From Flexilinea flocculi (GTDB lineage: Bacteria > Chloroflexota > Anaerolineae > Anaerolineales > Anaerolineaceae), in contig NZ_DF968181.1 of NCBI RefSeq assembly GCF_001192795.1, positions 772,342 through 836,341 on the forward strand: a stretch of DNA of 64,000 nt, given 5' to 3'. Positions 12,903 to 59,577 of this stretch are shown one piece after another. The position numbers and the translations under genes are program-made. Within the stretch, counting starts at the first letter, position 1, and each line of letters begins with the position of its first letter. Under the pieces are notes generated by a model. It ran no database searches. It saw only the letters and a list, made by a program, of their open reading frames with translations, and was not told where the DNA came from.

Positions 12903-13021
12903 CCAGTACTTCGAAATATTTAATTGCTATTCGAATCAATCTGGGAAAACTTGTTGTTGTGATGCTTTTGCGCTCAGCGCAAAAACATCACAACAACAAA
13001 GAAACTTCCTTATATTTCGAA
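12903..13021. repeat. Foldback element, family 1 (copy 2)
   Basis: Left terminal repeat CCAGTACTTCGAAATAT (12903-12919), right partner TTATATTTCGA (to 13020), and a central palindrome at 12951-12999. The arms TTGTTGTTGTGATG and CATCACAACAACAA are fully complementary; one mismatch follows, then TTTTGCGCT / AGCGCAAAA and a one-base centre. It lies between the convergent operon end and the RsiV-like gene. Confidence 0.85.
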
Positions 13022-27059: not shown

Positions 27060-27290
27060 TTAATATTCAAGCTGGACAATTTTCTCGCCGCATGGTTGAC
27101 AGAGCGCCATCCGAAAAGAGATTGCTTCTCTATGATCGCAATGACAGCGCGTATATGTCATTGTTATTACCCTGGAGGGGCGAGCCCCGAAGGGGCGTGG
27201 CAATCTCCTTGCCACATGGTTGGCAGAGCGCCATCCGAAAAGAGATTGCTTTGTCGGGCTGACGCCCTCCTCGCAATGACAAATTGCCAT
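27060..27290. repeat. Dispersed repeat, family 2 cluster (CATTGCGAG / GCAATCT type)
   Basis: Several units lie head to tail and head to head: GAGATTGCTT...GCAATGACA (27118-27147), TGTCATTG...GGCAATCTCC (27157-27210) around an inverted GGGGCGAGCCCCGAAGGGGC, and GAGATTGCTT...CTCGCAATGACA (27240-27281). GTTG(A/G)CAGAGCGCCATCCGAA occurs twice. Similar short non-coding repeats are common in environmental bacterial genomes. Reading frames through it are spurious. Confidence 0.85.
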
Positions 27291-27483
27291 GTGTGAACTT
27301 CTGAATTTCTCGAATTAATGTCTTGAAATCTATAAATTTGAGCGTAAAAAGGGACTATTTTTCAAAAAGTGAGAAACTCAGGTGAAAAAAATAATTACCA
27401 ATTTGTAGATGTTTTGGCGTCAAAAATTGTCCAAGAAGAAGTCATTATAAGTAAGAATTGGTCAAAAAGAAGCTCAAAATGAG

Positions 27484-27511
27484 TAAATAAAAATCCCCCG
27501 CAAAGGAGGAT
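27484..27511 (-). terminator. Terminator of the candidate ncRNA
   Basis: On the minus strand ATCCTCC pairs with GGGGGAT (one G-U) around TTTGC and is followed by TTTTTATTT. No minus-strand protein gene precedes it, which is why I assign it to the ncRNA. Confidence 0.8.
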
Positions 27512-27622
27512 CTTCCGAGCAGCTCACCCTGGGCCTTGATTTCAATATTTCCCGCCGCATTTCAGCGGAAGCTAGGTCACTCTCCGAGTGACCGGGGTCA
27601 CCAGGCTTTACGATGCCGCTCT
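27484..27622 (-). ncRNA. Candidate structured small RNA (unknown family)
   Basis: A complete small transcription unit is visible: consensus promoter (27629-27657), predicted start near 27622 and terminator ending near 27484, giving about 139 nt. Stems seen in order include GGTCACTC/GAGTGACC around a 3-nt loop (perfect, 8 bp), TTCCGC/GCGGGAA with one bulge around a TGAAATGCG loop, a long-range CCTGG/CCAGG pair, GAG/CTC with a 3-nt loop, and the terminator. A diverged copy lies at 39620-39715, where small GAG...CTC and CGC...GCG pairings are kept although bases differ. It is not recognisable as 6S, SRP, RNase P, tmRNA or a known riboswitch. Confidence 0.65.
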
Positions 27623-27628
27623 GTTATT

Positions 27629-27657
27629 ATTATAGAGCGTTCTTTGAAAAAGTTCAA
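27629..27657 (-). promoter_or_regulatory. Sigma-70 promoter of the candidate ncRNA
   Basis: On the minus strand TTGAAC (27657-27652), exactly 17 bp spacer, TATAAT (27634-27629). It points away from the MalT-like gene. Confidence 0.8.
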
Positions 27658-27759: not shown

Positions 27760-30414
27760 ATGTCTGAACAAATTCTGCTGACGAAATTATTTGTCCCAAC
27801 AACCCGTGGAATGCTCGTCTTAAGGAACAATCTGTTTGAACGGTTGAATCATAGCCTTCTTACAGGCTGCAAACTTACGCTCATTTCTGCTCCTGCCGGA
27901 TTTGGAAAATCCACATTGATCAGCTCATGGATCGAGACAATTAAGGTTCCGATTGCATGGTTGTCACTGGATGAACGGGATAATGATCCGGCACGCTTCA
28001 TTACATACCTGGCAGCAGCATTACAAAAAGTCAAACCGGGAATTGGGCAGAATCTGCAGGCGATCCTTCAATCTCCGCAACCTCTCCAGATCGAGAATAC
28101 GCTGATCCTGCTGATTAATGAAATTTCATTCATCGAGGAAAAATTTGTCGTTGTCCTGGAGGATTACCATTTGGTTGATTCACAGCAGGTGGATCAAGCA
28201 TTGGAATTCCTGATTAGCCATCAGCCGCCGTGCATGCATCTGGTCATTGTCACACGCGAAGATCCGAACCTGCCGTTGGCGCGTCTCCGCGCACAAAACC
28301 ACTGCATCGAATTACGGGCTGCTGATCTGCGTTTCTCGAATTATGAAACAGAAGAATTTTTTAATCGCATCATGCAGTTAAACCTTTCAAAAAAGGGTAT
28401 CGATTTGCTGGAACTCCGGACTGAAGGATGGATCGCTGGGATGCAAATGGCAGCTATCTCGATGCAGGGTTTACAGGATACTGACAGATTCATCCAAAAC
28501 TTCACAGACAGTAACCGATTTGTCATGGATTATTTGTTAGAGGAGGTCTTACATCGACAGCCCGAAAATATCCAAGACTTTCTCCAAAAAACGTCCATTC
28601 TTGATCGTATGTGCGGATCACTGTGTGATGCCATTCTGCAGGACACTTCTGCTTCCAGTAAAGCTACTTTGGAATATCTGGAGCGCGTTAATCTTTTCAT
28701 TATCCCCCAGGACAATGAAAGGCAGTGGTACCGATATCACCATTTATTTAGAAATCTCTTGCTCAATCGGTTGGGCCAAAATCTTTCCCGTGAGATAATT
28801 TCTGAGTTGCATATCCGTGCCAGTGAATGGTTTGAAAAAACCGGTTCACTTTTTGAGGCTTTTCTGCATGCGACCGCAGCCAATGATGTCGAGCGCGCTG
28901 AACGCTTGATTGAAACTGAGCAAATCGGTTTGCATCTCCGCAGCGTCGCAATACCCGTTCTGAACTGGCTGAACTCATTGCCGAAATCCGTGTTGGATAC
29001 CAGACCTCGACTTTGGGTACGATCTGCCACTACAGCATTGGTGCTCGGGCTGTCCACCGGTGTCGAAGAAAAATTGCAGGCTGCTGAAGCCGTTTTTACT
29101 GCTCGAAAAGAATCATATCATGCTGAGGAAAGCGACCAAATCCGGGACTTGATCGGACAAATAGCCTGTGCCCGGGCCACCCTGGCGCTTTTCCGTTATG
29201 ATCCGGCTGAAATGATCATTCAGGCTCGCCGTGCTCTTGAATATTTGCATTCGGACAACCTGACATATCGCTTTACGGCTAATTGGGCATTAACTTCAGC
29301 TTTTATGTTTCAAGGAGATCGTGCTGGAGCTGCACAAGCCAATCAAGATTGTATTGAGATCAGCCAAAAATCCGGACATGTTTTTTCAAAAATCCTGGCT
29401 GCAAGCAATATGGGTTCCTTACAGGAAATGGAAAACCAGCTTAATCTGGCAGCTGAGACTTATCATGAGGTACTGCAATTATTTGGCGATCATCCGCAGC
29501 CAAATGCCAGTATTGCGCTCCTTGGATTAGCACGTATCAGCTACGAGTGGAACGATTTAATTGCTGCCGAACGCTATGGACAGCAGAGTCTGCAATTGGC
29601 GCTGCAGCTTGACAGTAAGATTGACCGTTTCATTGTCAGTGAAGTGTTTCTGGCACGGTTAAAGTTGGCTCATGGCGATCTGGAGGATGCCTTAGGGCAA
29701 TTAATCCGAATTGAACAAACTGCCCGGCAAAGAAAATTTCTGCTGCGGCTGCCGGAGATAGCTGCTGCCCAGGTTTCCGTGTTGCTGCGGCAAGGCAGTG
29801 TCTCCGATGCAATTCCATTGGTTCAGCGATATGAGATCCCTCTGTCTCAGGCGCGTGTCGCACTGGCACAAGGCAACCCGTCTGCTGGATTGGCAATTCT
29901 GGAGCTTTATCGCCAGCAAATGGAAGCGCGGAGATGGGCTGATGAACGTCTTCGAGCGATGATTCTTCAAACTCTCACATTCTATGCGTGTGATGAGAAG
30001 GATAAAGCAACTCAAGTACTCAGCGAGGTACTTTCATTGGCTGAGCCGAGTGGCTTCCTCCGTATCTTCCTTGATGAGGGCAAACCGATGGCAGATCTTC
30101 TGTCTGCAGCGGCTGCACAAGGTATTTGTCCGGACTATGTCAACAGGCTTTTGGCTGCCTTCGAGGCGGAAGTGAGCAATAAACAGGCTACAGCTACGCT
30201 ACCCGGTTCTTCATCGTTGGTCGATACACTTAGTGTACGCGAATTGGAAGTCCTGCGGTTGATCGATCAGGGCTTTTCAAATCAAGAAATTGGCGAAAGG
30301 CTTTTCCTGGCGCTTGATACCATCAAAGGGTACAATCGTCGGATTTTTGAAAAATTACATGTCCAGCGGCGAACGGAAGCGATTGCCCGCGCCCGAGAAC
30401 TGGGTTTATTGTAA
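27760..30414 (+). CDS. MalT-like LuxR-family ATP-dependent transcriptional regulator
   Basis: An 884-residue STAND regulator. Walker A APAGFGKST is at about residues 45-53, Walker B-like VVVLEDYH near 128, then a winged helix and a TPR-rich sensor region (about 340-800). The C-terminal LuxR helix-turn-helix is LSVRELEVLRLIDQGFSNQE (about 822-841). MalT-type proteins bind an inducer with the TPR domain and activate promoters when ATP-bound. No Shine-Dalgarno precedes the ATG, and a TATAAT at 27746-27751 would start transcription almost at it, so the mRNA may be leaderless. It is divergent from the ncRNA. Confidence 0.9.
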   Translation: MSEQILLTKLFVPTTRGMLVLRNNLFERLNHSLLTGCKLTLISAPAGFGKSTLISSWIETIKVPIAWLSLDERDNDPARFITYLAAALQKVKPGIGQNLQAILQSPQPLQIENTLILLINEISFIEEKFVVVLEDYHLVDSQQVDQALEFLISHQPPCMHLVIVTREDPNLPLARLRAQNHCIELRAADLRFSNYETEEFFNRIMQLNLSKKGIDLLELRTEGWIAGMQMAAISMQGLQDTDRFIQNFTDSNRFVMDYLLEEVLHRQPENIQDFLQKTSILDRMCGSLCDAILQDTSASSKATLEYLERVNLFIIPQDNERQWYRYHHLFRNLLLNRLGQNLSREIISELHIRASEWFEKTGSLFEAFLHATAANDVERAERLIETEQIGLHLRSVAIPVLNWLNSLPKSVLDTRPRLWVRSATTALVLGLSTGVEEKLQAAEAVFTARKESYHAEESDQIRDLIGQIACARATLALFRYDPAEMIIQARRALEYLHSDNLTYRFTANWALTSAFMFQGDRAGAAQANQDCIEISQKSGHVFSKILAASNMGSLQEMENQLNLAAETYHEVLQLFGDHPQPNASIALLGLARISYEWNDLIAAERYGQQSLQLALQLDSKIDRFIVSEVFLARLKLAHGDLEDALGQLIRIEQTARQRKFLLRLPEIAAAQVSVLLRQGSVSDAIPLVQRYEIPLSQARVALAQGNPSAGLAILELYRQQMEARRWADERLRAMILQTLTFYACDEKDKATQVLSEVLSLAEPSGFLRIFLDEGKPMADLLSAAAAQGICPDYVNRLLAAFEAEVSNKQATATLPGSSSLVDTLSVRELEVLRLIDQGFSNQEIGERLFLALDTIKGYNRRIFEKLHVQRRTEAIARARELGLL

Positions 30415-34725: not shown

Positions 34726-34848
34726 CGGTAATTCAATACATGGAAAGGAATATATGTAGCAGTGATGTTTTTACGCAAAGCGCAAAAACATCACTGCTAC
34801 ATATATTCCCGATTTATTCGAAAAGCATGTCCATATTTCGCCTTGTTA
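34726..34848. repeat. Foldback element, family 1, longest stem (copy 7)
   Basis: Central palindrome 34747-34809: arms of 30 bases beginning GGAATATATGTAGCAGTGAT with one mismatch next to the GC core, and a 3-base loop AAA between CGC and GCG. The ends are CGGTAATTCAATACATGG on the left and CCATATTTCGCCTTGTTA on the right, both diverged from consensus. Confidence 0.85.
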
Positions 34849-34856
34849 TGTGGTTT

Positions 34857-34978
34857 CTGTCATTGTTATTACCCTGGAGGGGCGAGCCCCGTATGAGCGT
34901 GGCAATCTTTTGACACATACGAGAATAAATTGCTTCTCAATGATCGCAATGACAGATCCATCCATATTTCGAATTGCT
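34857..34978. repeat. Dispersed repeat, family 2, joined to a family 1 end
   Basis: TGTCATTGTTATTACCCTGG and GGGGCGAGCCCCG at the left match the 27 kb cluster; the right unit ends GATCGCAATGACAGATC. It continues directly into CCATATTTCGAATTGCTG, a family 1 right end, so the two families are physically joined here. Confidence 0.75.
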
Positions 34979-39723: not shown

Positions 39724-39848
39724 GCAGTAATTCGAAATTTGGAAAAACTTTTTGAGTGAAGAGAGAAAATTTGTTGTTGTGTTGGTTTTGCGCGGAGCGC
39801 AAAACCAACACAACAACAATTAATCTTTCTCATAATTCGAATTGCTGG
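39724..39848. repeat. Foldback element, family 1, complete, inside the BREX locus (copy 8)
   Basis: Ends GCAGTAATTCGAAATTT (39724-39740) and CATAATTCGAATTGCTGG (39831-39848). The central palindrome 39771-39819 is perfect: 23-base arms beginning TTGTTGTTGTGTTGG and reaching TTTTGCGC around GGA. It separates brxC from pglX and would form a very stable hairpin in the operon transcript. Confidence 0.9.
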
Positions 39849-48789: not shown

Positions 48790-48900
48790 GCAGCAATTCG
48801 GTATATGAATTGACTTTTCGAAAAAAAATGTTCATATGGCTTTGCGTGAAACGCAAAGCCATATGAACATCAAAAAATAATTTTCATATTTCAAATTACC
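48790..48900. repeat. Foldback element, family 1, complete (copy 9)
   Basis: Ends GCAGCAATTCGGTATATG (48790-48807) and CATATTTCAAATTACC (48885-48900). The palindrome 48828-48870 is perfect: 20-base arms ATGTTCATATGGCTTTGCGT and complement around GAA. The stem differs almost entirely from the TTGTTG type yet keeps the shape. Confidence 0.88.
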
Positions 48901-49995: not shown

Positions 49996-50090
49996 TTCGA
50001 ACAAAAAAAAGGAACTTTGTTGTTCTTATAGTTTTCCGCGAAGCGGAAAACTATAAGAACAACAAAGAATTCTTTTCATAATTCATTCAC
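49977..50090. repeat. Foldback element, family 1 (copy 11)
   Basis: Left end TTCGAAATATGGATTGACTT; palindrome 50015-50067, perfect, with 25-base arms beginning CTTTGTTGTTCTTATAGTTT and a GAA loop between CCGC and GCGG. The right end (CATAATTCATTCACCG) is diverged. It lies between the divergent phosphatase and rpmF genes, so it is not a terminator. Confidence 0.88.
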
Positions 50091-53760: not shown

Positions 53761-53837
53761 CAATAATTCGATTTATGAGAGGGATTATTTGTTGTTGTGT
53801 TGTTTTTGCGCGGAGCGCAAAAACAACACAACAACAA
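53761..53837. repeat. Foldback element, family 1 (copy 12)
   Basis: Left end CAATAATTCGATTTATG; palindrome 53789-53837, perfect, with 23-base arms beginning TTGTTGTTGTGTTG and a GGA loop between GCGC repeats. The core TTTTGCGCGGAGCGCAAAA is identical to copy 8, but the outer arm differs and is still complementary. It lies in the divergent region upstream of ecfA. Confidence 0.88.
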
Positions 53838-53924
53838 TTTTTCTATTTTTTCTCAGAAGTTTTTTCGAAATTTCTGCTTGTCGTTTCTTCGACAGCGATA
53901 CGAAATATGAGAATTAAAGGGATC

Positions 53925-54135
53925 GAAGCAATCTCTTGCCATGTACGAGAATAGAATAGATTGCCACGTCGGGCTGACACCCTCCTCGCAATGACAGATT
54001 GTCACGTGAGCCCACAGGAGCAGAACCTGTCATTGCGAGCCCTGCAAGGGCGTAGCAATCTCCTAAACAATGTGCAAAGTGTGCCACACGAAAAAAGATT
54101 GCCACGTCGGGCTGACGCCTTCCTCGCAATGACAG
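53925..54135. repeat. Dispersed repeat, family 2 cluster
   Basis: Three related units contain GATTGCCACGTCGGGCTGAC, then CTCGCAATGACAGAT (53960-54000; 54105-54136), and an inverted CATTGCGAGCCCTGCAAGGG unit (54030-54062). Frames through it are spurious. It leads directly into half of a foldback element. Confidence 0.85.
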
Positions 54136-54164
54136 ATCAATCTATGAAGAATTCATCATATAAA

Positions 54165-54247
54165 TCTTTTACGCTTCGCACAAAAACATAAGAACAACAA
54201 ATTTTCTTGATTGATTCGAAACGTTAATCCATAATTTGAATTGCTGA
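54165..54247. repeat. Foldback element, family 1, right half only (copy 13)
   Basis: It retains the loop ACGCTTCGCA and right arm CAAAAACATAAGAACAACAA, then an intact right end CCATAATTTGAATTGCTG. The left half is replaced by the family 2 cluster, showing one repeat interrupting or recombining with the other. Confidence 0.7.
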
Positions 54248-54397: not shown

Positions 54398-54575
54398 TGT
54401 ACAGATAGAGGCGCGAAATTCATCAGTAGCATGACGGAACTGCTTAAACAGTGTAGATGTTCATGTGAAAGGGAATTTTGCCGAAGCTGAGATCGGTTTA
54501 AGAGTGATTGAGGCTGGGCTTACGGAGAATATCCGAAAGACTGTCACAAATTTTTTGTGGAGCGCTATCGTTCGG
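54398..54575 (+). promoter_or_regulatory. Lysine riboswitch (L box)
   Basis: The conserved core is readable: GATAGAGGCGCGA ... CATCAGTA near the 5' end, GAAAGGGAATTTTGCCGAAG in the middle, GGCTGGGCTT, CCGAAAGACTGTCAC and TGTGGAGCGCTATC at the 3' end, closing P1 (GATAG / CTATC). Lysine binding in this class stabilises a downstream terminator. A possible competing hairpin TTACATAA / TTATGTAA (54577-54608) and then a strong terminator follow, so high lysine should shut off the permease operon. Confidence 0.9.
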
Positions 54576-59423: not shown

Positions 59424-59577
59424 TTCGAAATTTGAAAAAGCCTTTTGAGTAAAAAGAAAAAAACTTGTTATTGTGTAAGGGCGAAGCAATTTTCTGCCAA
59501 ATGCGGGAATAGATTGCTTCATTGGACTGACGCCCTCCTCGCAATGACAGATCAATCCATATTTCGAATTGCTGGAT
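59424..59577. repeat. Chimera of family 1 and family 2 repeats
   Basis: A family 1 left part (GCGGTTCGAAATTTGAAAAA ... CTTGTTATTGTGT, 59424-59475) is followed by family 2 sequence (GGGCGAAGCAATTTTCTGCC ... CTCGCAATGACAG, 59478-59550), then an intact family 1 right end CCATATTTCGAATTGCTGG. Family 2 appears to have replaced or entered the stem of a foldback element. Confidence 0.8.

Follow-up and report, generated by a model that had tools for sequence, protein, structure and literature searches.

The window, the whole stretch of 64,000 nucleotides of Flexilinea flocculi DNA that was analyzed, carries on its minus strand a small structured RNA at 27516–27622 which a scan with the Rfam covariance models identifies as DUF3800-III (RF02962), with a score of 92.8 bits (E = 1.2e-21) against a gathering score of 43.8 bits for this family. 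The model is matched over its full length, sequence, structure and length all agree, and it is virtually certain that the RNA is an ordinary member of this known family, found here in an informative state. The initial annotation had held that the RNA matches no known class and had named a match to a known family as a result that would overturn this claim; the claim therefore falls to the RF02962 match, which also rules out a new RNA class. No second match to RF02962 accompanies it in the genome (3.5 Mb in 3 contigs, 97% complete). The features that we discuss are as follows.

27629–27657, minus strand: sigma-70-type promoter TTGAAC-17-TATAAT, 10 of 12 consensus matches, at the same place in most relatives
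27516–27622, minus strand: DUF3800-III RNA (RF02962), whole model, 92.8 bits
27595–27605 and 27528–27536, minus strand: 5′ arm (CCUGG...) and 3′ arm of a long-range helix, from the covarying consensus
27575–27593, minus strand: first hairpin, 8 bp, from the minimum-energy fold and the consensus (coordinates by arithmetic from alignment columns)
27552–27571, minus strand: second hairpin, from the minimum-energy fold and the consensus (coordinates by arithmetic from alignment columns)
27489–27515, minus strand: terminator hairpin and then a T-rich stretch, separate from the RNA body
27348–27482, plus strand: DUF3800 gene remnant, an open stretch of 44 codons plus stop, from tblastn and the clade HMM
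27077–27284, no strand assigned: dispersed repeats of families D5, D14, D15 and D18, in the place expected for the missing part of the DUF3800 gene
916–992, 12945–13021, 34748–34824, 39765–39841: copies 1–4 of repeat family D1
48819–48895, 50011–50087, 53783–53859, 54146–54222: copies 5–8 of repeat family D1

The family D1 consists of palindromic repeats of about 77 nt, eight of which lie in the window. Dispersed repeats with the motif CTCGCAATGACA are found at 27077–27284, 34853–34955, 53940–54137 and 59493–59552, and similar motifs occur just upstream of the RNA at two related loci (L069 and L088). The window also holds a lysine riboswitch (RF00168) at 54398–54575 on the plus strand, with a score of 105.3 bits.

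For comparison we collected related RNAs from 298 genomes drawn from the class and 400 genomes drawn from the order, in which 72 RNAs reach the gathering score; the related loci come from Anaerolineaceae such as Longilinea arvoryzae. The promoter that the initial annotation had proposed is found at 27657–27629, and a promoter with at least 9 of 12 consensus matches lies within 60 nt upstream of 57 of the 72 related RNAs, whereas mononucleotide shuffles of the same upstream sequences contain one in 5.2% of cases. The proposed intrinsic terminator is likewise present, as a hairpin at 27515–27489 followed by T's. The initial description of the locus thus holds for a structured small RNA with a consensus promoter and a terminator; that the RNA stands free is secondary, because the tail of a convergent DUF3800 gene sits directly at the 3′ end of the RNA. 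The RNA is also, as had been noted, divergent from a MalT/LuxR-type gene (27760–30414). A functional link to this neighbor is unsupported, as the upstream frames of 13 listed loci differ when compared by eye.

The secondary structure is supported both by folding and by comparison among relatives. A 141-nt segment folds at -60.2 kcal/mol (z = -3.8), and none of 200 shuffled sequences folds as well. The minimum-energy fold and the covarying consensus both contain the 8-bp hairpin GGUCACUC/GAGUGACC, the bulged UUCCGC/GCGGGAA hairpin and the long-range CCUGG/CCAGG helix, all three of them predicted at the outset. The covariation test that had been suggested was run on 40 of the 72 related RNAs, whose alignment has 33 consensus pairs, and strongly supports the structure: at 20 of the 33 pairs both bases vary and still pair, and 96.6% of the cells in paired columns are paired, as against a mean of 84.5% in shuffled alignments and 32.7–58.4% when the partners are slid relative to each other. 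The unpaired core (CGUAA, CUAGC and UGAAAUC) is invariant. The window copy retains 31 of the 33 pairs, and the changes in it that are absent from five near relatives number three (U.G to C-G, U.U to U-A, and one loop base); judged from the sequence, these are few and are not what decay would be expected to look like.

A second, diverged copy that the initial annotation had placed in the window was found neither by Rfam, nor by blastn, nor by a covariance model of our own. The Rfam scan of the window gave no second RF02962 match, and blastn of the RNA with words of 7 gave nothing elsewhere in the window under E = 1.4. Our own model, built from the 40 relatives and run unfiltered over the whole window, scores the RNA at 113.9 bits and the next best place at 10.6 bits (E = 3.8). 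The repeats at 27077–27284 resemble the RNA in short stretches at E of 10 or more (blastn, words of 7), and our guess is that they may have been taken for a second copy.

The usual setting of the RNA in relatives is a molecule of about 108 nt lying tail to tail with a DUF3800 gene of about 205 codons. For 34 of the 72 RNAs the nearest match to PF12686 lies 74–234 nt past the RNA 3′ end on the opposite strand, and the contigs of the remaining 38 have no PF12686 match; wherever the contig has a match, the nearest one is convergent and lies beyond the RNA 3′ end. In the window, a recognizable DUF3800 C-terminal end of about 35 codons (27357–27461, plus strand) lies just past the RNA terminator. 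It contains NNYQFVDVLASKIVQEEVIISKNWSK, matching the end of intact DUF3800 proteins, its E value of 3.7e-5 by tblastn is the lowest among the matches listed (2-kb target), and the HMM of the clade recognizes it at profile positions 185–215 (E = 7.5e-5). The remainder of the gene was not found in the window, and the window genome gave no match to PF12686 at E ≤ 1 and none to the DUF3800 clade profile at E ≤ 1e-10. Because the end of the gene stands at the usual place and in the usual orientation and the rest was not found, we take the RNA to be the surviving half of a broken pair; that it has been stranded by reduction of its partner nuclease gene to its end is very probable.

The partner protein in relatives is predicted to be a nuclease with an RNase HII-like fold. 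An AlphaFold2 model from a 20-row alignment has a mean pLDDT of 92.4, its best match among solved structures is the RNase HII 1eke (Z = 12.8, rmsd 2.9 over 162 residues), and the top 19 structural matches are RNase H2, HII or HIII by title. All 20 partner proteins share D7, E8, E53, D122 and D167, and the D-E-x-G of the partner recalls the RNase HII motif. Profile–profile comparison gave no match between the partner and RNase HII, and the likeness is therefore one of fold only. No credible relative was found among the sequences of solved structures (best E = 0.12), and nothing credible in NCBIfam; among the PADLOC models, PDC-M04A matches 6 and DUF3800_VII 5 of the 20 proteins, all weakly. In its passages on DUF3800, a published study (PMC10910872) describes the domain as a catalytically rearranged RNase H fold and mentions the RNAs only as putative ncRNAs associated with it. 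Our literature search found no publication on DUF3800-III together with Chloroflexi. The DUF3800 RNA families themselves reportedly originate from a paper of 2017.

We next consider whether the gene occurs without the RNA, using a clade profile built from 20 partner proteins, all of them RNA-adjacent, to search both draws of genomes. It finds 38 places scoring at least 150 bits, and the RNA adjoins 36 of these, the RNA beside one place (G149:C353) scoring 43.3 bits, just below the gathering score. The two places without the RNA are one at a contig end and one (G315:C133) that is frame-shifted and without a piece. When only intact clade proteins are counted (at least 150 bits, at least 175 profile positions, no stop), the RNA adjoins 32 of 32; this set differs slightly from the 32 RNAs described below as facing an intact gene, G529 belonging only to the RNA-facing set and G149:C353 only to the profile-found set. 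Three full-length places at 104–125 bits (G071:C132, G247:C357 and G071:C68) have no RF02962 match over the threshold, and RNA-like elements are visible by eye at the expected place beside each. On 17 loci with a match to the DUF3800 profile and no RF02962 match over the threshold, our own RNA model reaches at best 28.8 bits. At Rfam gathering scores, 20 other DUF3800 loci show DUF3800-IX or -VI in 5 cases and nothing in 15, and therefore an RNA known to Rfam does not lie beside every DUF3800 gene.

Two further observations concern these DUF3800 loci. Judged by eye, convergent RNA-like elements of the ATGGTAAGCATAAGACC... type lie beside DUF3800 genes at L132:2111-2219, L134:2106-2319, L177:2158-2253, L179:1416-1511 and L182:1460-1547, in tandem in L134, L177 and L179; they reach no Rfam gathering score and are possibly an undescribed relative of DUF3800-III. 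A match to the abiF RNA (RF03085, 39.1 bits, gathering score 37) at L161:971-1015 on the plus strand lies near the broken DUF3800 gene at G315:C133.

The converse case, the RNA without the gene, is common. The 72 RNAs divide into 32 opposite an intact gene, defined as one covering at least 175 profile positions in a single frame, 17 opposite a broken or frame-split gene, 3 at contig ends and 20 with no gene. Since incomplete assemblies are frequent among the genomes, this absence, like every other noted here, carries limited weight. Of the 17 broken genes, five (L003, L013, L014, L064 and L101) are nearly whole and split between frames, possibly through sequencing errors, and the other 12 are without large parts. 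In the sample, then, the dependence runs one way: no intact clade gene stands without the RNA, and many RNAs stand without the gene. Gene loss can be followed across shared flanks by comparing L070 and L071 (gene) with L075 (none), L078 (gene) with L074 (broken), and L004 (gene) with L005 (broken). At L010, L074 and L094, both ends of the DUF3800 gene are kept on the 3′ side of the RNA and the middle is gone, a layout resembling that of non-autonomous derivatives of mobile elements.

The RNA often stays well folded after the gene is lost, a hint that it may have a function independent of the gene. Median scores are 94.75 bits beside intact genes and 92.8 bits beside broken ones (p = 0.85), and 74.05 bits in the absence of any gene, which is lower than beside intact genes (p = 0.067); all 20 RNAs without a gene pass the family threshold and several score above 100 bits, scores that are biased upwards because decayed orphans drop below detection. 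In the 108-nt subtype the paired share of the cells is 96.5% for the 20 RNAs that have an intact gene and 96.8% for the 18 that lack one. The RNA of L074 carries five double changes on its own branch. Like such changes on orphan branches in general, they may have arisen before the gene was lost as well as after it, a point against the reading that we favor below.

For the single copy in the window, the main rival to continued function is that it is a relic: the cassette broke fairly recently, and the RNA, perhaps still transcribed, has no function and will decay. We consider this quite possible. The gene remnant is still recognizable, the window RNA differs from that of L070 at only 5 positions, an apparently half-destroyed RNA does exist (L030, 30.3 bits), and the genome holds no DUF3800 protein for the RNA to act with. 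Set against this, the gene tail in the window has diverged from L070 far more than the RNA has (64.7% against 95.3% identity; for the intact locus L078 the corresponding values are 73.9% and 90.6%), the changes confined to the window RNA preserve pairs or create new ones, and the 20 RNAs without a recognizable gene still score above the family threshold.

One genome holds two copies of the pair, L072 and L088. Counted from the RNA, their shared stretch runs from -41 to +665 with 89.6% identity and spans promoter, RNA, terminator and gene; the 60 best matches listed show nothing else common to both. Promoter, RNA, 3′ end and DUF3800 gene thus appear to move as a unit, in a cassette of about 0.8 kb. 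Searches for carriage by phages or plasmids gave no match, and viral contigs gave no exact pattern match. Movement as a unit, the presence of more than one copy in several genomes and the modeling of the partner as an RNase H-type nuclease would all suit an RNA that serves as activating cofactor or guide of a mobile nuclease, in the manner of RNA-guided homing, the orphans being non-autonomous copies served in trans from cassettes elsewhere. We consider this improbable, however, as the RNA has its own promoter inside the cassette, so that no flank-derived guide is evident, and as no intact clade protein was seen in 24 of the 51 RNA-bearing genomes, among them the window genome; the number falls to 19 when the five frame-split genes are taken as intact. 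Were the RNA purely activating, orphans should decay; their occurrence in these 24 genomes favors a restraining, antidote-like role.

The neighborhood of the orphans offers another reading, namely that an orphan RNA now acts mainly as a terminator or antisense element for a convergent gene at its 3′ end. At 6 of the 20 loci without the DUF3800 gene (L021, L022, L027, L073, L080 and L084) a convergent frame of at least 150 codons does stop 0–15 nt from the RNA end. A terminator requires neither an invariant unpaired core nor a strong promoter, however, and the convergent frame in the window is nothing but the gene remnant, making this reading very improbable.

The one-way dependence is most simply explained if the nuclease relies on the RNA, either to work or to be tolerated, and the RNA can persist alone. 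That RNA and protein are partners is likely, although the binding itself is inferred. In the intact cassette, the RNA would bind the DUF3800 nuclease and restrain it. In the window genome the nuclease gene has very probably been cut down to its end, with promoter, RNA and terminator intact, and the RNA might have been kept because it still brings a benefit, for instance by acting as an antidote to DUF3800 cassettes that enter the genome anew. We tentatively favor this reading, in which the RNA is an obligatory restraining partner of the nuclease and is usefully kept after gene loss. Its more specific element, that the orphan RNA acts as an antidote, is rather unlikely on present evidence, and the general form, in which DUF3800 cassettes constitute a new RNA-restrained nuclease module with orphans selected as antidotes against incoming cassettes, is more doubtful still. 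The one-way dependence allows a simple test, which is to ask whether the nuclease is harmful without its RNA. If it is, an RNA-controlled nuclease module is defined and the orphans are explained; if it is harmless, the orphans need another function.

Compared with known systems, the window RNA agrees with DUF3800-III in sequence, structure and length, and its locus differs in that the neighboring gene is reduced to its end. The DUF3800-IX RNA (RF02968) likewise lies tail to tail beside DUF3800 genes, at 11 of 20 loci scanned, but is another RNA family accompanying another DUF3800 clade. In type III toxin-antitoxin systems the RNA is a repeat array that precedes the toxin gene and shares its strand. 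These systems share with the DUF3800 cassette a structured RNA, a nuclease-like protein and tolerance of the orphan RNA; here, by contrast, the RNA is single, has its own promoter and is convergent at all 34 loci where a PF12686 gene lies no more than 1 kb away, so that the same-strand upstream placement of type III is absent. OMEGA RNAs are non-coding RNAs next to the small mobile nuclease genes of TnpB and IscB, and in the DUF3800 cassette a small, apparently mobile nuclease gene likewise adjoins a non-coding RNA. The DUF3800-III RNA differs from them in that the cassette includes a promoter of its own for the RNA and that no guide derived from the flank is visible.
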